A DNA stretch of 64,000 nucleotides from Sphingomonas psychrotolerans (GTDB lineage Bacteria; Pseudomonadota; Alphaproteobacteria; Sphingomonadales; Sphingomonadaceae), in NCBI RefSeq assembly GCF_002796605.1, contig NZ_CP024923.1, forward strand, positions 1,488,001 to 1,552,000, read 5' to 3'. The translations under genes and the position numbers were made by a program. Positions 1-36,660 of the stretch are shown in pieces. The notes beneath the pieces are model-generated. The model was not told the DNA's origin and did not search any database. It saw nothing but the letters and a program-made list of their open reading frames with translations. Each line of letters starts with the position of its first letter. Within the stretch, counting starts at the first letter, position 1.

Positions 1-1125
1 TCCATCCGGATGCAGATTGTCGCCGCCCTGCAGCTTCGCCGCCAGCCGTTTCGGATTGGCGGGATCGGCGACCACTTTCTCCATGTCGATCACGGCATCG
101 AACATCCTCGAGGCGCGGATCCACTGGTTCACCCGCACCCGCATCGCCTCGCCCGCGGGCGTCTGATACATCGCGCCCTCATAGGGCAGGATCGTCATCG
201 CATAGACCTTGATCCCGCGCTCGTGCGCCCGCAACGCGAGCTGCTTATACCCCGAAATGAGCTGGTCGCCGGTGATCGTCGGGCGCACCGTGCCATTCAC
301 TTCGCGCCCCGAATTGCCGATATCGTTGATCCCTTCCAGCAGCACGACATGACTGACGCCCGGCACCGCGAGTACGTCGCGGTCGAAGCGTGCCAGCGCG
401 CTCGGGCCAGTGCCGTGCGCGAGGATGCGATTGCCCGAGATCGCCTGCGTCACCACCACATGCGGCTTTCCCGCCGCCGCCAGCCGCCGCGCGAGGACGT
501 CGCCCCAGCGGCAGCGCGGCATCGCATCGTTGGCGCAACCGACATTGTCGGTGATCGAATCACCGAACGCGACGATCACCGGGCGCGGCTTCTCGCTCAG
601 CACGTCGAGCCCGGCGATCAGCGGGCGCAGCCGCCACTTTTCCGCCGGCACGAAATCCTCGGCGGTATGATCGCCGGGCGCGGAGATCAAAGTCTGCTGC
701 CCGACTACGTCATGGACCGTGTTGGGCTGGACGGCCTCGGGAAAGAACAGCGACACCTCGACCAGGTCGAACGCCTTGACCGGCAGCGCCACCGGATCGC
801 TGACCAAAGGCGCACCCTCGGGGACGCGCACCGAGGCTTGTCCCCCAAAAGTCACCCGTACCGCCTTGCCGCCGGGGAGCCGCACGGTCGCGGCGCCGAT
901 CGTCAGCGCCGACCCGTAGTCATTGGCGAGCCGCAGCCGGAGTTGCCCCCCGCCCGCTCCGACCCGCACCGCCGAGCGGATCGTGACATTGCCGAGCGTC
1001 TTCACCTGATCGGCGGGCGCCTGCCACATGCTAGCGGTCCAGGCGCGGGTCCAGCGGTCGCCCGCCGGCGCGGCCGCTACCAGCAACAGCGCAGCCGTCG
1101 CCGCGACGAACTTGATCCCCCGCAT
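1..1125 (-). CDS. SGNH/GDSL-family hydrolase, secreted (3' end outside window)
   Basis: This is a secreted SGNH-fold esterase or lipase; the substrate is unknown. The first 22 or so residues (MRGIKFVAATAALLLVAAAPAG) form a Sec signal peptide. The block I serine motif FGDSITDN lies near residue 190, GINDIG (block III) follows about 60 residues later, and the catalytic Asp-His block is just reached at the window edge as NLHPDG. All catalytic blocks are therefore visible and only the C-terminal tail is missing; 375 codons are seen. The start ATG has a GGAG-type ribosome site and lies 12 bp after the stop of the M13 peptidase, so the two are probably cotranscribed. Similar proteins sit in polysaccharide-degradation loci, but nothing here fixes the substrate. 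Confidence 0.85.
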   Translation of the reverse strand, partial: MRGIKFVAATAALLLVAAAPAGDRWTRAWTASMWQAPADQVKTLGNVTIRSAVRVGAGGGQLRLRLANDYGSALTIGAATVRLPGGKAVRVTFGGQASVRVPEGAPLVSDPVALPVKAFDLVEVSLFFPEAVQPNTVHDVVGQQTLISAPGDHTAEDFVPAEKWRLRPLIAGLDVLSEKPRPVIVAFGDSITDNVGCANDAMPRCRWGDVLARRLAAAGKPHVVVTQAISGNRILAHGTGPSALARFDRDVLAVPGVSHVVLLEGINDIGNSGREVNGTVRPTITGDQLISGYKQLALRAHERGIKVYAMTILPYEGAMYQTPAGEAMRVRVNQWIRASRMFDAVIDMEKVVADPANPKRLAAKLQGGDNLHPDG

Positions 1126-1137
1126 CGCCGCCTCTCC

Positions 1138-3210
1138 TTACCAGACCTTCACGCGCTGCTCGGGCGTCAGGAACAATTTCTGCCCCGCCGCCACGCCGAA
1201 CGCCGGATACCAGGCATCGAGATTGCGCACCGTCTGGGCACGCCAGCGGGCCGGCGCATGGGCATCGGTGGCGATCCGCGCGCGCAGCGCCTGTTCGCGC
1301 GATTTATCGCGCCACGCCTGGGCATAAGCGAGGAAGAAGCGCTGATCGCCGGTCAGCCCGCCGATCACCGGCGGCTCCTTGCCGCCCAGCGAAGCACGAT
1401 AGGCCTCGTACGCCGCGGTGAGCCCGGCGACGTCGGCGATGTTCTCGCTGAGCGTCTGCTGGCCCTTGAGGTGCAGCCCCGGCAGCGCTTCATAAGCGTC
1501 ATATTGTGCCGCCAGCGCCTTGCCGCTCGCCTTGAAGCGCGCGAGATCGGCGGGAGTCCACCAGTTGCGCAGCCGCCCGCTCGCGTCGAAGTTCGCGCCG
1601 AGATCGTCGAAGCTGTGGCTGATCTCGTGCCCGATCACCGCGCCGATCGCCCCGTAATTGGCCGCAGCATCGGCGCCCGGATCGTAGAACGGCACCTGCA
1701 GGATCGCGGCGGGGAAATTGAGCGCGTTTTGCAGCGGCAGATTGACTGCGTTGACGGTCTGCGGAGTCATCCACCATTCGCCGCGATCCACCGGCTTGCC
1801 GAGCTTGGCGAGCTGGTGGCGATATTCGGCGAGCTGCGCGCGGCGCAGATTGCCGACCGGATCATCGGCCTTCACTTCTAGCCCGGCGTAACTGCGCCAG
1901 GTCTCCGGATAACCGATTCCGACCTGCATCCCGGCGATCTTCTTGCGCGCTTCGGCCTTGGTCGGCTCGGCCATCCATGGCAGCGCCGCGACGCGCTTGT
2001 CGAACGCGGCGAGAATCCCCTTCACCATCGTCTGGATGTCGGCCTTGGACGAGGCGGGGAAATAATCCTTCACATAGAGCTGGCCGACCGCGTCGCCGAG
2101 CCACGTATCGATCGATCCGATCGCGCGCTTGTCGCGCGGGCGCGGCTTGGGCTGGCCGTTGAGGGTGTGCCGGAAGAACTCGAAATGCGCCTGGTCGAAG
2201 GCGGCGGGGAGCACATCGGTCACTTCGTCGATGCGGTGGAAGGTCAGCCAGTCCTGCCAGGCCTGGAGCGGTTCGCTCGCGACCAGCTTCGCCATCGCCG
2301 CGACCGTCTGCGGATGCCAGACGATGAAATCCTGCTGCCCGCTTAGCCCTGCCGCAGTCCAGAAGGCGTCCCAGTCGATCCCCGGCGCCTTCCTCGCGAA
2401 ATCGGCCTTCTTCCACGGGTTGTTCGCCTTGTGGATGTCCTGGCTGGTGACGATGTCGGTATGCGCGCGGGCGATCTTGCTCTCGAGCTCGAACACGCGC
2501 TGCGCCCGGGCATCGGGCTCGGTGATGTTGGCGAGGCTGAGCAGCTTGCCGATATAGGCGCGATACTGGTCGCGGATCGTCGCCATCTCGGGCTTATCCG
2601 AGAGATAATAATCGCGCTCGGGCAGCCCGAGCCCGCCCTGCAGCAGATAGGGTATATTGGTGTCGGGGCGATCGAGCGCCTGGCTTACGAACAGGCCGAA
2701 CAGATTCGCGGTCTCGAAATTGGTCGCGTTGAGCGGGTCGACATCGGCGCGGATATTGGCGCCGAGCATCGTCGACAGCGCTTTCTTGTCCCTGAGTGTG
2801 GCGATCGCATCCATTTCGGCGCCGAGGGGCGCCAGCCCGCGCAATTCGATCGCGGCGGTGTCGGTAAAGGCGTTGTACCAGTCGGCGATGCGACGCTGAT
2901 CGGTGCCGGGCGCGGCATTGGCCTTGAGCGCGGCCTGAACGATCGCGGCGTTGTTCGCTTCCGCCTTGTTGAACACTTCGAGGAACACGCCGGTGCTGGA
3001 GCGATCGCCCGGGATCTCGGTGTGCGCTCGCCAACCGCCATTGGCATATTCGTCGAAATCGTCGCCGGGCTTCACTTGCTTGTTCAGCCCCGCGACGTCG
3101 ACTCCGATCCCGGCGCCCGCCTGCGCGGCGGTGTTGCCAGGGTTACTGCCCCCGGGGGTGCAGGCAGCGGTTGCGAGAAGCAGTGCGAACAAGGCCGCGC
3201 GAGTCGTCAC
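1138..3210 (-). CDS. M13-family zinc metallopeptidase, lipoprotein (PepO/neprilysin-like)
   Basis: The 690-residue protein is a peptidase family M13 endopeptidase, expected to cleave peptides in the periplasm. The N-terminus is a lipoprotein signal, with a lipobox (ATAAC) putting the lipidated cysteine at residue 17. The zinc site VIGHEISHSFDD (HExxH) lies near residue 528 and the third ligand motif SENIAD follows about 60 residues later. The C-terminal tryptophan (VKVW) is typical of M13. The length matches bacterial PepO proteins. It precedes the SGNH hydrolase on the same strand by 12 bp and is divergent from the carboxylase gene at 3336. The family assignment is secure; the physiological substrate is unknown. 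Confidence 0.93.
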   Translation of the reverse strand: MTTRAALFALLLATAACTPGGSNPGNTAAQAGAGIGVDVAGLNKQVKPGDDFDEYANGGWRAHTEIPGDRSSTGVFLEVFNKAEANNAAIVQAALKANAAPGTDQRRIADWYNAFTDTAAIELRGLAPLGAEMDAIATLRDKKALSTMLGANIRADVDPLNATNFETANLFGLFVSQALDRPDTNIPYLLQGGLGLPERDYYLSDKPEMATIRDQYRAYIGKLLSLANITEPDARAQRVFELESKIARAHTDIVTSQDIHKANNPWKKADFARKAPGIDWDAFWTAAGLSGQQDFIVWHPQTVAAMAKLVASEPLQAWQDWLTFHRIDEVTDVLPAAFDQAHFEFFRHTLNGQPKPRPRDKRAIGSIDTWLGDAVGQLYVKDYFPASSKADIQTMVKGILAAFDKRVAALPWMAEPTKAEARKKIAGMQVGIGYPETWRSYAGLEVKADDPVGNLRRAQLAEYRHQLAKLGKPVDRGEWWMTPQTVNAVNLPLQNALNFPAAILQVPFYDPGADAAANYGAIGAVIGHEISHSFDDLGANFDASGRLRNWWTPADLARFKASGKALAAQYDAYEALPGLHLKGQQTLSENIADVAGLTAAYEAYRASLGGKEPPVIGGLTGDQRFFLAYAQAWRDKSREQALRARIATDAHAPARWRAQTVRNLDAWYPAFGVAAGQKLFLTPEQRVKVW

Positions 3211-3335
3211 CTTAGGGCTCTCCTGGTCAAGTCGAACGCCGTGGGTGCTACTCCGCCATCGCTGCGCGCGCCAGTCTTCCCAAGCGGCGGAACGCGGTGT
3301 AGGCAGAGCAAAACTAGGACAGGAAGGATGCCCTA

Positions 3336-19840: not shown

Positions 19841-21898
19841 CTAGCCGAGTTTTGCGCGCGCCCGGAAGCGATGGAGCAGCGGTTCGGTATAGCCGGCCGG
19901 TTGTGCCGCGCCTTCGAAGACCAGCGCGCGCGCCGCCTGAAAGGCGAGACTCTCCTGCTCGCGGCCCGCCATCGGCCGGTAGTGCGGATCGCCCTGGTTC
20001 TGCGCGTCGACCTTGGCCGCCATCCGCCGCAGCGCCGCCTCGACATCGACCTCGCGTGCCACGCCGTGGAGCAGCCAATTGCCGATATGCTGCGACGAGA
20101 TGCGCAAGGTCGCGCGATCCTCCATCAGTCCCACATCGTGGATATCGGGGACCTTCGAGCAGCCGACGCCCTGATCGATCCAGCGCACGACATAGCCGAG
20201 AATGCCCTGCGCGTTGTTGTCGAGCTCGCGGGCGATCTCCTCGGGCGACCAATTGCGCCCCTGTGCCACCGGAATCGTCAGCAGCGGCGCCAACCCGGGC
20301 ACGGCCTCGGCCGCGATTTCGCGCTGGCGGGCGAACACGTCGGTCTGGTGATAGTGGAGCGCGTGGAGCGTCGCGGCAGTCGGCGACGGCACCCAGGCGG
20401 TGTTAGCGCCTGACTCCGGGTGCGCGCCCTTCTGCGCGAGCATGTCGGCCATCCGGTCGGGCGCGGCCCACATGCCCTTGCCGATCTGCGCCTTGCCCGT
20501 CAGCCCGCAGGCGAGACCGATGCGGACGTTGCGGTCCTCATAGGCCTTGATCCAGCTGGACGCCTTCATCTCGCTCTTGGGGACCATCGGGCCGGCGCGC
20601 ATGCTGGTGTGGATCTCGTCGCCGGTGCGATCCAGGAAGCCGGTGTTGATGAAGGCGATGCGGTCCTTCACTGCGTGGATGCACGCCGCGAGATTGGCCG
20701 AGGTGCGCCGCTCCTCATCCATCACGCCGACCTTGATTGTGTGCCGCGCGAGGCCGAGCAGATCCTCGACCGCGTCGAACAGCCGATCGGTGAACCCGCA
20801 TTCCTCGGGGCCGTGCATCTTGGGTTTGACGATGTAGATCGATCCGGCACGGCTGTTGCGATGCCTGCCCAGCCCGCGCAGGTCATACAGCGCAATCAGA
20901 CTGGTGACGATCGCGTCGAGAATGCCCTCCGGCGCCTCCTGTCCGTCAGCGAGCAGCATTGCCGGAGTGGTCATCAGGTGGCCGACATTGCGCACGAACA
21001 GCAGCGCGCGCCCGGCCAGATCGCCACGATCGGGATTGAGCTTCCGAGTGACGGTCTGGCCGCCCTTGTCGAACCGCTCCTCGAGATCGCCACGCATCAG
21101 ACCGAGCCAGTTGGTATAAGCCGCGACCTTGTCCTCGGCATCGACCGCGGCGATCGAATCCTCAAGATCGACGATGGTGGTGAGCGCCGCCTCGAGCCGC
21201 ACATCGGCGATCCCGGCCGGATCGTCCCGCCCGATCGGGTGCGTGCGGTCGACCACCACTTCGATGTGCAGTCCATGGTGGCGATAGAGCCACGGCGCGA
21301 TCTGCTGCGCCGGATCGCGAAGCACCGGCGTGTCGCTCAGATCTGTCCAGCTCCCCTCGGCGAGTGGCACCGCTTCGTCGAGAAACGCCCTGGCCCGCGC
21401 AATCACCCGCGCGCCGCGCTCGCGATCATAGCCACCCGACTTCGCTGCGCCCGGCAGCGCGTCGGTGCCGTAGAGCGCGTCGTAGAGGCTGCCCCAGCGC
21501 GCATTGGCAGCGTTGAGCACGAAGCGGGCATTGAGCGCGGGCACCACCAGCTGGGGGCCGGCCATCCGCGCGATCTCGTCGTCGACATTGGTCGTGCCGA
21601 TCGTGAAGGGCGCCGGCTCAAGGACGAGATAGCCGATCTCGCGCAGGAACGCCTCTTGCGCCGCGGGATCGGCCGCGCCGCGCGGATCGGCTTCGCACCA
21701 TGCGTCGATCTTGGTTTGGAGCACGTCGCGCTTCGCCAGCAATGCGCGGTTCTCGGGTGCGAAGCGCGCGAAGATATCCGCCGCGCCCGCCCAGAAGGCC
21801 CCCGCCTCGATCGCCAGCTCCGGCAGCACGCGAGTCTCGACGAAGCGCGCGAGAATATCGGCAACCTTCAGGCCGGCGCGATCGACAGTAGCGGACAT
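19841..21898 (-). CDS. glcB: Malate synthase G
   Basis: This enzyme condenses glyoxylate with acetyl-CoA to malate in the glyoxylate bypass. The 685 residues carry the malate synthase G signatures [52 protein letters not shown], and near the C-terminus [15 protein letters not shown] with the catalytic Asp. The chosen ATG at 21898 follows GGAGGAG with good spacing and gives the family N-terminus; a longer upstream frame lacks support. A MarR-family gene lies upstream on the same strand, 70 bp away, and may regulate it. Isocitrate lyase is not in the window. Confidence 0.94.
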
Positions 21899-21968
21899 GC
21901 AAACTCCTCCTGGCAACATCACTAACGTGCCTGGGGAGGGCATGCGCGACCTATCGGGCGAAGCGCCG

Positions 21969-22424
21969 CTAATCAACCCCGCGATCGAGCGCGATCGCCG
22001 CGACCTCGATCCGTTCGAGCATCGCACGCAGCTGGGTCCGCTCCGTGTCGGACAGCGTATCGAAGATGCGCTGCTCGAACTCGAGCGCCTTGGGCGCGAC
22101 CTGCTCGTAGAGCGCCCAGCCTTGTTGCGACAAGGTCAGCAGGTGCGAGCGTTGATCGTCGGGATTGGCGCCGCGCTGGATCAGCCCGCGCTCGGCCAGC
22201 GCGATCGCGGCGCGGCTAACCGTCACCTTGTCCATCCGCGTGCGCCCACATAAAGCCTGCTGGCTCATCGCCCCGCCTTCGGCCAGCACCGCCACCAGCC
22301 GCCACTCGGGGATGCGCAGACCGAAGAGCGTCCGATAGGCGCTGGCAACCGCATCCGACACCGTGTTGGATGCGATCGAGAGTCGATAGGGCAAAAATTC
22401 GTCGAGTTTTAGCGTCTTCGGCAT
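21969..22424 (-). CDS. MarR-family transcriptional regulator
   Basis: This 151-residue winged-helix regulator has the MarR layout: an N-terminal dimerisation helix, [16 protein letters not shown], recognition helix region [23 protein letters not shown], the wing [19 protein letters not shown], and a C-terminal dimer helix. It precedes malate synthase G on the same strand and faces the candidate small RNA across a 90-bp divergent region. Its targets are not evident; local autoregulation would be typical for the family. Confidence 0.9.
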
Positions 22425-22475
22425 GCCTCACCGTGCTGCCAACATGCTCGCCGCGCAAGTGACAGCGTTGTACGG

Positions 22476-22505
22476 TTGCATTTTCTGCAATGGTATCGGT
22501 ATCAT
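22476..22505 (+). promoter_or_regulatory. Sigma-70-type promoter for the candidate small RNA
   Basis: TTGCAT at 22476-22481 and TATCAT at 22500-22505 are separated by 18 bp, a good match to a housekeeping promoter. Transcription would begin near 22512 and run into an intrinsic terminator about 95 bases later, with no open reading frame between. Confidence 0.6.
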
Positions 22506-22511
22506 TTCGCA

Positions 22512-22608
22512 CTTGCAGCATATCCCGCCGCGCTGCAGAAGGATCAGGCCTTTCAGGCATCCTCTCCTAAAACTTTCAAACGGCCGCCCTCCGGGGCGGC
22601 CTTTTTTT
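22512..22608 (+). ncRNA. Candidate trans-acting small RNA with CU-rich anti-Shine-Dalgarno stretch
   Basis: An RNA of about 97 bases is predicted between a sigma-70 promoter and an intrinsic terminator. It has a 5' hairpin (TGCAGC at 22514 pairing with GCTGCA at 22532). A second hairpin follows (GGAT at 22541 with ATCC at 22559, inner GCCT-TTC-AGGC). Next comes a single-stranded linker CCTCTCCTAAAACTTTC and the terminator hairpin with seven U. The unpaired CUCUCCU is complementary to ribosome binding sites, as in many alphaproteobacterial Hfq-dependent small RNAs. No coding potential is evident. I cannot assign an RNA family without a covariance search. Confidence 0.6.
22582..22608 (+). terminator. 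Intrinsic terminator
   Basis: GGCCGCCC pairs with GGGCGGCC across a TCCG loop and is followed by seven T residues, the clearest intrinsic terminator in the window. It ends the candidate small RNA and faces the convergent hypothetical gene at 22645. Confidence 0.9.
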
Positions 22609-22644
22609 GTCACGTCGCGGAGAAGCTATGCGCTTCCGCAAAAT

Positions 22645-23019
22645 CTAAGAATCATCCAGCGGCCCATGCGCCGTCGACGTGCGCGCTAGTCCACGGTGAA
22701 GGATCTCGAGCTCCTCCCGGCTCAGTACGCGCTCGGCGACGCAGGCCGCTTCCACGTCCTTCCAATCCGGATGGCGGGCCTTGATGATGGAATGAAGTGC
22801 GGAAATCGCACGCGCTCGCTCGCGATGGCAAAATTGGATCACGCTGCCATATTCGACGATCACAGGCGAAGGCCCAGTCCTAAGGGGCATCTGCTCGCGA
22901 GGCTCCCCCGGGCGATCCGATTCGCGCGATTCGAGCCGAATGCACTGGATATGCTGCCGAACCGCCGGATCGTATGAAATCGTCTGGAGCGCCAACGCCA
23001 ACAAAAGACCGGTACTCAT
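22645..23019 (-). CDS. Hypothetical small secreted protein
   Basis: This is a protein of about 124 residues starting MSTGLLLALALQTISY, which looks like a short signal sequence, then a soluble charged domain with two cysteines. An in-frame ATG six bases upstream (23025) is possible, but the GGGGG ribosome site suits the inner ATG. I recognise no family. It stands alone between the small RNA terminator and the aldehyde dehydrogenase gene; its function is unknown. Confidence 0.55.
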   Translation of the reverse strand: MSTGLLLALALQTISYDPAVRQHIQCIRLESRESDRPGEPREQMPLRTGPSPVIVEYGSVIQFCHRERARAISALHSIIKARHPDWKDVEAACVAERVLSREELEILHRGLARTSTAHGPLDDS

Positions 23020-23051
23020 CGTCATTCCCCCTATGACCGAGCCAAATCCGA

Positions 23052-24458
23052 TTACTTCATCTGCCGCTTGATCGTCGCCCAGGTGGCCTTGCCGTAAGGT
23101 GGCTTCATCCCCGCCAGCTTCGCCACGTCGAGCCGCGGCTGCCGGTAGATGCTGCGCACATGGCTGAAGGTGCGGAAGCCCGCTTCGCCATGATAGGCGC
23201 CGGTGCCCGAGGGGCCGATGCCGCCGAAGGGCAGATCTTCCTGGCTGACATGGAAGATCACGTCGTCGAGCGTCACCCCGCCCGAGATTGTTCGGTCGAG
23301 CACCTGTCGCCGCTCACCGCCGTCGCTGCCGAAATAATAGAGCGCCAGCGGCCGATCGCGCCGGTTCACTTCGGCGATCGCGTCGTCGATATGGACATAG
23401 CTGCGCACCGGCAGGATGGGGCCGAAAATCTCTTCCTGCATTACCGTCATCTCGTCGGTAGCGCCGCGGATGATGTGGAGCGGCATCTTGCGCGAATTCG
23501 AGGCGGCGAAATCCTCGTTCGCCGGATTGACTGCAATCACCTCGGCGCCCTTGGCGCGCGCATCCTCGATCCAGGCACTCAGGCGGGCATGATGGCGGTC
23601 GTTGATGACCGCGGTATAATCGGAATTGACGAGCAAGGTCGGATACATCGCGGAGGCGGCGCGGGTCAGGCCGGCGACCACCTCTTCTTCCTTCTCCGCG
23701 GGCACCAGCATGTAATCGGGCGCGAGGCAGATCTGCCCGGCGTTGAGCATCTTGCCCATCGCGACCCGCTCGGTCGCCTGCACAATGTCCGCCGAGCGAC
23801 CGACCACCACCGGGGATTTGCCGCCGAGCTCCAGCGTGACGGGAGTGAGATTGTCCGCGGCGGCATGCAGGATGTGCTTCGCGATCCCCGTCGCGCCGGT
23901 GAACAGCAGATGATCGAAGGGGAGTTCGGCGAACGCCTTGCCGATCTCGGGGCCGCCGCTGACGAACGCCACTTCCTCCGGCGCGAAATAGCGCGGCGCG
24001 AGTTCCTCGAACAACGCGGCTATCACCGGCGTGAACTCGCTGGTCTTGACCATAGCGCGATTGCCCGCGGCGAGCACGCCGGCAAGCGGGCTCATCACGA
24101 GGTTCACCGGGAAATTCCACGGCGCGATGACCCCCACCACGCCCTTGGGCTGATATTCGATCCATGCCCGCCCGCCGAGCAGCCCGAGCGGGAACATCAC
24201 CGGCTTGCGCTCGCTTTTCGACCAGCGCCCGACATGCTTGCGCGCGTGGCGGAGCGGCCCGATCGACGCGGCGATATCGGCGATCATCGATTGCTCGCGG
24301 CTGCGATGCCCGAAATCCTCGGAGAGCGCATCGCAGAAGCGCGTAGCATTCTCGGAAATCATCGCGATCGCACGCTCGAGCCGGTCCTTGCGCGTTGCAA
24401 GTGACACCGGCAGTTCGCCCATGAATGCGGCGCGTTGGCGATCGAGGATATTGTGCAT
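23052..24458 (-). CDS. Coniferyl aldehyde dehydrogenase-type NAD(P)+-dependent aldehyde dehydrogenase
   Basis: This 468-residue aldehyde dehydrogenase is of the class that contains coniferyl-aldehyde dehydrogenase and long-chain fatty aldehyde dehydrogenases. Key residues are visible: VIAPWNFPVNLV for cofactor binding, FTGATGIAKHI, the general-base VTLELGGKSP and the nucleophile NAGQICLAPDY. The C-terminal basic tail (WATIKRQMK) may be membrane-associated. The ATG at 24458 gives the usual N-terminus. It oxidises an aldehyde to its acid, and the exact substrate (aromatic or aliphatic) is not determined by these motifs. Confidence 0.88.
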   Translation of the reverse strand: MHNILDRQRAAFMGELPVSLATRKDRLERAIAMISENATRFCDALSEDFGHRSREQSMIADIAASIGPLRHARKHVGRWSKSERKPVMFPLGLLGGRAWIEYQPKGVVGVIAPWNFPVNLVMSPLAGVLAAGNRAMVKTSEFTPVIAALFEELAPRYFAPEEVAFVSGGPEIGKAFAELPFDHLLFTGATGIAKHILHAAADNLTPVTLELGGKSPVVVGRSADIVQATERVAMGKMLNAGQICLAPDYMLVPAEKEEEVVAGLTRAASAMYPTLLVNSDYTAVINDRHHARLSAWIEDARAKGAEVIAVNPANEDFAASNSRKMPLHIIRGATDEMTVMQEEIFGPILPVRSYVHIDDAIAEVNRRDRPLALYYFGSDGGERRQVLDRTISGGVTLDDVIFHVSQEDLPFGGIGPSGTGAYHGEAGFRTFSHVRSIYRQPRLDVAKLAGMKPPYGKATWATIKRQMK

Positions 24459-24520
24459 GGGACTTTGTGATCCGAACCGCGCTGCTGCGCAAGCAGGCGC
24501 CCGGATTTGCCCGGATGTGG

Positions 24521-25273
24521 CTAGGCCAGTGCCTGACCCAGCCACACCGCCCAGGCAGCGGCAGCCAGCATCACGCCGAACGGCAGCCGATCAGTCCCGG
24601 TCACCTTGTGCCCCGCGCTCATAAAACCAAGCACGGCCGCGATCCCGATCAACGCGGCGGCGAGCAGCACCAGAGGCAGCGCGTGCCAGCCGAGCCAGCA
24701 GCCGATCGCCCCGAACAGCTTGGGATCGCCCCCGCCCAGCCCCTGTCGTCCGCGCACCACCCGATAGCCCGCCGCGACCGCCGCCAGTGCCGCGAAGCCG
24801 CCGATTCCGCCGATCAGCCGGGCATCCATCGGGGGTGCGATGCCGAGCAGTCCGGTCGCCAGGCCCGCCGCGGCAAGCGCGCCGGTGAGCAGATTGGGCA
24901 GCCAGAAGGCAGCGAGGTCGAGTGCCGCCAGCGTGAGTAACAGCCAGCCGAACACCGCTCCGGCGACGCCGCCGATGCCCGGCACGAGCAATCCGGCGAC
25001 CACACCGATCGCCATGCCGGTCAGTTCGGTCACGAGGTGGCCGGGATGGATCGGCGCGTCGCAGCCCCGGCAACGCCCGCGCTGGAGCACGAAGCTAATC
25101 ACCGGCACCAGTTCGCGCGCAGTCAGCTCCTTGCCGCACCCATCGCACTGCGATCGTCCCCGCAGCGGCGAACGCCCGTCCGGCCAACGGATCGCGACGG
25201 TGGCGATGAAGCTGCCGAAGACGAGGCCGAGCACCCCGAGCAGCAGCGGCCACAGCCACGGCTCAATCCGCAT
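24521..25273 (-). CDS. Prepilin peptidase (A24 family, PilD/GspO-like)
   Basis: This 250-residue inner-membrane aspartic protease cleaves and methylates type IV prepilins or type II pseudopilins. It has the N-terminal methyltransferase domain with two CxxC pairs (CDGCGKEL and CRGCDAPIHPGH) and the peptidase motifs ALDLAAFWLPN and GLGGGDPKLFGA, each with a catalytic Asp. The first motif ends LPN where LPD is usual. About seven membrane segments are present. It overlaps the following small membrane gene's stop by 11 bp. No pilin or secretion genes are nearby, so it acts on substrates encoded elsewhere. Confidence 0.87.
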   Translation of the reverse strand: MRIEPWLWPLLLGVLGLVFGSFIATVAIRWPDGRSPLRGRSQCDGCGKELTARELVPVISFVLQRGRCRGCDAPIHPGHLVTELTGMAIGVVAGLLVPGIGGVAGAVFGWLLLTLAALDLAAFWLPNLLTGALAAAGLATGLLGIAPPMDARLIGGIGGFAALAAVAAGYRVVRGRQGLGGGDPKLFGAIGCWLGWHALPLVLLAAALIGIAAVLGFMSAGHKVTGTDRLPFGVMLAAAAWAVWLGQALA

Positions 25274-36497: not shown

Positions 36498-36660
36498 CCG
36501 GCCGACGCCGCAGTCCAGCGCCAGCAATATTTCGTTACGATTGCCGCCGCGCTGCGCATTGAATCCTTAACCCCGTCCCCCTAAATTGGTCTTGCGGGAC
36601 CGGGCCCCTCTGGCGGTGGCTTCATCTGAAGCGCCGTGATGTCGGACCGCATCGAGCTAG

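Follow-up and report, generated by a model that had tools for sequence, protein, structure and literature searches.

Between the gene for a MarR-family regulator (21969-22424, -) and a hypothetical open reading frame (22645-23025, -), the stretch of Sphingomonas psychrotolerans DNA analysed here (the window; 64,000 nucleotides) has a gap that raises the question of which small RNA (sRNA) it encodes and what would control it. A sequence-only reading had placed a candidate anti-Shine-Dalgarno sRNA between these two genes, a position that holds, and had named a covariance search as a check. That search matched RF00519 (suhB/MmgR) at 22541-22616, over the full model (positions 1-77), with 43.5 bits against a gathering cut-off of 41 bits. 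Rfam describes RF00519 as Makes More Granules Regulator RNA, and because it already holds this family, a new sRNA family is ruled out. There is good support for reading 22476-22608 as a cassette of promoter and sRNA whose RNA is a paralogue of the sphingomonad sRNA of suhB/MmgR type (alphaR8-related). Elsewhere in the window, at 36592-36654 (+), lies a terC RNA (RF03067, 60.4 bits), a predicted cis-regulatory RNA.

We found two related elements in the same genome. The sister copy, C1:3285074-3285146 (-), scores 42.3 bits with RF00519 and has a 32-nt core identical to that of the window copy. With the A of AGGCC (22546 in the window) numbered 0, ungapped comparison of window and sister in 20-nt blocks gave 11-14 identities out of 20 from -80 to 0, 20 at 0..20, 15 at 20..40 and 8 at 40..60, where the terminator lies, and only 2-7 per block outside -80..+60. 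Since the likeness is confined to -80..+60, the duplicated unit looks like the promoter plus the RNA. The third element, C1:4427997-4428077 (+), carries TCTCCTCCCT and adjoins the gene for N-formylglutamate amidohydrolase (FGase); it reaches 30.8 bits, below the RF00519 cut-off, and its locus (L080) gave no RF00519 hit in the Rfam scan of 14 loci. In that scan the cut-off was passed by 13 of 13 sRNA-bearing loci, that is, 12 named sphingomonad loci and the sister (L079), with 41.4-58.3 bits. Upstream of the FGase-linked element (L003/L080:7998-8078, +), CTTGAA-N16-CTATAT resembles the RpoH1-type promoter quoted in PMC8844928, and about 5 kb away L080 holds a SAM-I/IV riboswitch (3171-3280, -; RF01725, 46.7 bits).

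Single alphaR8 copies usually neighbour the FGase gene and carry a 10-nt single-stranded UUUCCUCCCU, according to the available text of PMC12559287. Predicted folds and copy counts give the window RNA the alphaR8 layout of a weak hairpin, a single strand and a Rho-independent terminator. Its neighbours are the MarR gene and a hypothetical gene, with no FGase gene adjacent, and in place of UUUCCUCCCU it has AUCCUCUCCU, which agrees at 5 of 10 positions without gaps. As UUUCCUCCCU is unmatched, we file the window RNA as a variant of RF00519 and not as a strict alphaR8 member; as the FGase-side element has the alphaR8 place and nearly its motif, the window RNA is a sibling and not the FGase-linked gene.

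To follow the cassette through relatives, we used blastn of 22440-22625, a query that includes the promoter, which found matches in 35 of 36 genomes of the same genus and in none of 24 from other families of the order. It gave 79 matches, of which 71 genus copies were used and eight left out (five with E from 2.5e-13 to 1.1e-7 and three short ones at about 8e-4). Further copies came from R1, a model of the RNA alone that begins six bases upstream of the inferred start: the 30 best-scoring R1 loci (L104-L133) and 20 others picked from the R1 list to add genera (L134-L153) contributed 51 copies. With two duplicates removed this makes 120 unique copies, all within the window's family, 89 in the genus and 31 outside it. 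Because L104-L153 were fetched by R1 alone, their palindromes, GCANTTG blocks and PhaR-type sites (below) were not selected for.

The R1 search, run with stricter filters that drop weak matches, found the RNA in 231 of 297 genomes of the order (E <= 0.01). Of these, 213 belong to the window's family and have between one and eight matches each, and the 18 in other families give weak matches (E 4e-4 to 9e-3). From the MAFFT alignment RNAalifold recovered only the four invariant hairpin pairs, with the terminator columns poorly aligned, so that R1 has just four base pairs and its E-values are rough. An exact-pattern scan found at least 120 stretches, and the hosts among the 80 matches listed are Sphingomonas, Sphingobium, Novosphingobium, Sphingopyxis, Erythrobacter, Rhizorhabdus, Blastomonas, Porphyrobacter and others. 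Genera g36 and g41 (genomes G277, G283, G228, G193, G330 and others) have up to seven and eight R1 matches, and at L151, L169, L185 and L204 two sRNA copies lie close together.

The features of the window copy are collected in Table 1.

Table 1. Features of the sRNA cassette and its divergent neighbour in the window (offsets count from 22546 = 0)
Feature	Position	Strand	Basis
MarR-family regulator gene, divergent from the sRNA	21969..22424	-	Pfam MarR_2 and MarR
Palindrome TTGCATTTTCTGCAA, probable LysR-type (T-N11-A) recognition site, centre about -62	22476..22490	.	conservation
TATCAT, the -10 first proposed; not conserved, probably not functional	22500..22505	+	3/120 copies
Invariant block GCACTTG (22509-22515) and probable -35 TTGCAG (22513-22518)	22509..22518	+	GCANTTG conservation
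PhaR-type 9-mer CGCGCTGCA (YGCRNYGCR), centre 13 bp upstream of the inferred start, over the -10 region	22529..22537	.	position-specific enrichment
Probable weak -10 CAGAAG, 17 bp from the -35	22536..22541	+	spacing; hexamers tabulated over copies
Predicted sRNA, about 63 nt	22546..22608	+	RF00519 match, fixed promoter spacing in 120 copies; 5' end inferred
Near-invariant 22-mer GCCTTTCAGGCATCCTCTCCTA: tight 5' hairpin GCCU-UUC-AGGC plus seed	22548..22569	+	alignment A1 of 71 copies; copy counts
Seed CAUCCUCUCC, single-stranded, anti-Shine-Dalgarno-like	22558..22567	+	predicted folds, conservation
Intrinsic terminator: 8-bp stem, 4-nt loop, seven T	22582..22608	+	sequence, copy counts

The RNA is conserved beyond chance. 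The 22-mer is identical in 105 of 120 copies, a figure that is conditional on retrieval because the copies were collected by similarity, and CCTCTCC is kept in 119 of 120. The unpaired CCUCUCC that had been noticed at the outset is indeed present at 22561-22567 and single-stranded in predicted folds, and comparison of the same region in relatives, another check then suggested, confirmed both CCTCTCC and GCCTTTCAGGCATCCTCTCCTA. Equally sound was the claim of a perfect intrinsic terminator, with a stem of eight GC pairs and a 4-nt loop at 22582-22601 and seven T at 22602-22608. As the terminator columns align badly and RNAalifold gave hairpin pairs only, we counted terminator stems copy by copy; a stem of 7-11 pairs (G-T allowed) with a T-tract occurs in 113 of 120 copies, built from 60 different 5' arms, and thus the structure is kept while the letters change.

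The two hairpins proposed ahead of the terminator fared differently. Hairpin 1 (CTGCAGC...GCTGCAG) has all six scored pairs in only 1 of 120 copies, so it is not borne out, and its bases look like promoter DNA; hairpin 2 probably shrinks to GCCU-UUC-AGGC. The strand 22510-22610 (101 nt) folds better than shuffles, with z -3.59 and 1 of 200 shuffles equally good. The region had been described as free of open frames, which holds in that none is judged a gene; mechanical frames do cross it (22423-22689 and 22476-22784, +; 22428-22613 and 22216-22560, -), and we discount them because the lengths of linker and terminator vary among copies.

We noted that the promoter first proposed, TTGCAT-18-TATCAT, matches the sigma-70 consensus at 8 of 12 positions by eye; a promoter scan of 20000-25000, however, returned no site at its threshold. 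Three of 120 copies, counting the window's, have TATCAT at its offset, and a hexamer no more than two mismatches from TATAAT stands there in 12 of 120; TTGCAT is actually the left half of the palindrome TTGCATTTTCTGCAA. The conserved elements lie elsewhere: GCANTTG stands at -37..-31 in 119 of 120 copies, and CA at -10/-9 in 71 of 71 genus copies. Given the invariant TTG at -33 and a 17-bp spacer, the -10 would fall at -10..-5 and transcription start at about 22546, from TTGCAG-17-CAGAAG, with 63 nt to the end of the T-tract. The hexamer CAGAAG itself is found in 2 of 120 copies, CACATA and CACAAA being the commonest. From the conserved positions of the palindrome, GCANTTG and the PhaR-type 9-mer, a length of about 63 nt (22546-22608) is more likely than the 97 nt first given. 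The anti-Shine-Dalgarno sRNA with its terminator thus survives from the sequence-only reading; its promoter and first hairpin do not, and its start and length were probably misread.

Besides the two siblings, just one other place in the genome, C1:4010172-4010211 (+; L098/L103), carries the composite promoter pattern (palindrome followed by GCANTTG, spanning 40 nt). Downstream of it lie a PhaR-type 9-mer and an open frame of 19 codons, MFSLIALYLSHRRNAAQAG; the phasin gene is about 7.5 kb away.

LysR-type regulation typically combines a T-N11-A palindrome upstream of the promoter with a divergently placed LysR gene. TTGCA-N5-TGCAA, allowing up to two mismatches, is present in 111 of 120 copies, centred at -61.5 or -62.5 in 108; spacers of N3, N4, N6 and N7 gave 23, 10, 9 and 11 copies of 120. 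The window copy has such a T-N11-A palindrome, centred at about -62, but its divergent neighbour is the MarR gene; the divergent LysR gene is found at the sister, which is flanked on its other side by a gene for a CDC48-type ATPase. The sister's LysR protein has the Pfam domains HTH_1 and LysR_substrate; its best NCBIfam model is GcvA, at 185.9 bits under a cut-off of 288, and its best PDB chain is also GcvA (E 1.2e-27). A LysR homologue lies in the fetched flanks of 65 of 120 copies (L025, with an 88-aa LysR fragment, left out), divergent in 65 of 65, with the alignment beginning 88-225 nt from the RNA 5' end; near the other 55, the window's among them, no such homologue was counted. A LysR-linked copy is found in 36 of 37 genomes of the genus set, S. 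psychrotolerans included (G013 counted from a contig-end fragment), G019 being without a copy. Position and linkage make the GcvA-subfamily LysR protein beside the sister the best candidate activator at the palindrome. T-N11-A is a generic LysR motif (PMC8844928).

A second regulator is suggested by the 9-mer over the -10. The PhaR motif of Sinorhizobium meliloti contains YGCRNYGCR, and PhaR binds the mmgR promoter and is reported as its repressor (PMC12542648). In the window this pattern lies near the start as CGCGCTGCA, where, by eye, 5 of the 8 constrained positions in the AT-rich arms of the S. meliloti motif agree. YGCRNYGCR is frequent in the GC-rich own genome (12, 22 and 14 hits on both strands of three loci of about 3 kb), so the evidence for PhaR is its position, not its presence: at offset -17 it occurs in 62 of 89 genus copies and 8 of 31 others, against 7 and 1 at the other 85 offsets summed. 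Of the genus copies 27 of 89 lack it, and of the others 23 of 31; many of these copies come from genomes that encode PhaR. The own genome encodes PhaR (TIGR01848, 152.2 bits against 109.45) and phasin, and upstream of phasin three PhaR-type 9-mers lie within about 60 bases. PhaR probably represses the window copy and most genus copies through the site over the -10.

PhaR is encoded in 267 and the sRNA in 231 of the 297 genomes of the order; as 13 genomes of genus g33 have PhaR though the R1 search lists none of them with the sRNA, the co-occurrence is uninformative as a correlation. G216 and G256 (genus g56) have no detectable PhaR and retain the sRNA. In G256 (L143) the LysR gene is present and the PhaR 9-mer missing, a single case that fits the PhaR link.

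We propose that RNA polymerase starts near 22546 at the weak TTGCAG-17-CAGAAG promoter, which probably needs a LysR-type activator on the palindrome at about -62, and that PhaR, the polyhydroxybutyrate (PHB) sensor, probably represses through the site over the -10. The RNA of about 63 nt would act with Hfq, its single-stranded CAUCCUCUCC pairing with purine-rich ribosome-binding sites and so blocking translation of trans-encoded mRNAs. For the whole model, that is, a family sRNA with LysR activation, PhaR repression, Hfq and anti-Shine-Dalgarno repression, our estimate is a probability of about 0.8. The mode of action and the Hfq dependence in S. psychrotolerans are suggested by analogy with SuhB and SisA, Hfq dependence being reported within the family for both (PMC6563040 and PMC12559287, as far as the available text of each goes). 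An hfq gene is present in the own genome. At C1:1094659-1095090 (-; L276/L277), two Hfq domains lie in tandem (90.1 and 105.8 bits), each with an open frame of 167 aa, and they apparently form one double-Hfq protein. A search of the own genome for targets, with an antisense 12-mer and one mismatch allowed, found 9 non-self sites, fewer than the 13 of the reversed-pattern control, and hence no enrichment. Two of the antisense sites look like gene starts by eye and are weak leads: the GTG start of a 156-aa frame (L286), and the ATG start of a 372-aa frame (L288) that has the sequence look of a Gfo/Idh-type oxidoreductase.

Other readings of the locus can be set against this model. The match to RF00519 might be convergent, the window holding an unrelated CU-rich sRNA with a strong terminator. 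Its score is just 2.5 bits above the cut-off, the alphaR8 10-mer is unmatched, and the separate alphaR8-like element with TCTCCTCCCT beside the FGase gene (30.8 bits, below the cut-off) is in the same genome; yet all 13 scanned sRNA loci pass the cut-off, with up to 58.3 bits, and a weak hairpin, a CU-rich single strand and a terminator follow in the same order, with a PhaR-type site upstream as in mmgR, so we regard convergence as unlikely. We consider it distinctly unlikely that the divergent MarR protein, and not LysR, controls the window copy through the palindrome that lies between both genes. The palindrome is found at the same offset in copies with no MarR homologue found nearby, LysR-linked ones included, and as it is common to dispersed copies it points to one factor in trans, even though in the window it precedes the MarR start codon by about 50 bp, and homologues of the window's MarR recur beside five other copies (L010, L011, L012, L023 and L120).

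That the window copy is a decaying duplicate which has lost transcription is very improbable. Its core 22-mer equals the consensus, its promoter blocks and terminator are intact, and relatives' copies in the MarR context keep all of these; against this stand the rare -10 hexamer (2 of 120 copies) and a locus common to few of the genomes examined. We give hardly any credence to the original model, in which TTGCAT-18-TATCAT drives an RNA of about 97 nt that forms two hairpins ahead of its terminator. The window does contain the two hexamers and the two hairpins, and the 101-nt strand beats shuffles, but only 3 of 120 copies have TATCAT at its offset, only one has a complete hairpin 1, TTGCAT is part of a palindrome kept in 111, and no promoter was found at the scan threshold.

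The window gene is well supported and, as a paralogue of a known sRNA, of an ordinary kind; its annotation is corrected to an RNA of probably about 63 nt with a different promoter. Two regulators that can be tested, a LysR-type protein and PhaR, emerge from the palindrome, the divergent LysR gene and the PhaR-type site, and a near-invariant seed in several siblings per genome poses the question of why sphingomonads multiply one RNA. A bolder reading, which we put at even odds, is that Sphingomonadaceae have a multi-copy regulon of the GcvA/GcvB kind, in which the LysR protein encoded divergently beside the founding copy drives that copy and the dispersed cassettes, all with a near-identical anti-Shine-Dalgarno seed. 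In such a regulon carbon-storage status would set the RNA dose, given the PhaR operators of many cassettes, and the window copy would be one cassette inserted next to the genes for MarR and malate synthase.

Several known systems resemble this arrangement. GcvB is longer than the sphingomonad sRNA. In E. coli, gcvB is divergent from gcvA, which encodes its activator, and in the GcvA/GcvB systems of Escherichia coli and Yersinia, as here, an sRNA gene and a GcvA-type LysR gene diverge from each other; the RNA differs, however, the sphingomonad one is multi-copy, and activation, shown for GcvA/GcvB, is inferred here (PMC1557403, in the text available). In LsrB/VtlR-AbcR1, too, a LysR gene lies beside sRNA genes (S. 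meliloti) and a T-N11-A motif upstream; in contrast to the sphingomonad palindrome TTGCA-N5-TGCAA, the box reported there is GCAT-N3-TG-N3-T (PMC7486931, PMC8844928). Judged by this published box, VtlR/LsrB does not fit as the regulator.

Both the sphingomonad RNA and MmgR of S. meliloti show the hairpin, the CU-rich single strand and the terminator of the Rfam model. Both also have a PhaR-type site close before the start: its listed distance from the TSS is 13 for MmgR, and here its centre is 13 bp upstream of the predicted start (PMC12542648, available text). It differs in its seed, CAUCCUCUCC in the window against UUUCCUCCCU, and sphingomonads have several copies, a LysR-type palindrome and the linkage. 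SuhB of Sphingopyxis granuli TFA is a 61-nt, Hfq-dependent RNA that represses translation of thnR; in Sphingopyxis it reportedly takes part in catabolite repression and reacts to growth rate and to PHB granules (PMC6563040). Going by family name and length, the sphingomonad sRNA is probably the same RNA as the published SuhB. A copy of Sphingopyxis panaciterrae (L190) has the 20-nt core with one change, 61 nt and 56.7 bits, and a second Sphingopyxis copy (L182) has 59 nt by the same definition and 41.4 bits. The window copy, by contrast, sits at a different locus as an additional paralogue. The available text of PMC6563040 does not name the transcription factor driving SuhB, and beyond that review there was, among the papers listed in the literature searches, no other study of a sphingomonad sRNA of the suhB/MmgR family; we do not claim the LysR linkage as unpublished, as earlier SuhB work may already describe a LysR neighbour. 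In Caulobacter crescentus, SisA represses mRNAs through its anti-Shine-Dalgarno 10-mer, and SisA-D, like the sphingomonad copies, are dispersed alphaR8 siblings with an anti-Shine-Dalgarno stretch; the Caulobacter siblings reportedly have unrelated promoters without a common motif (PMC12559287, in the text available), whereas those of sphingomonads keep a fixed promoter architecture.
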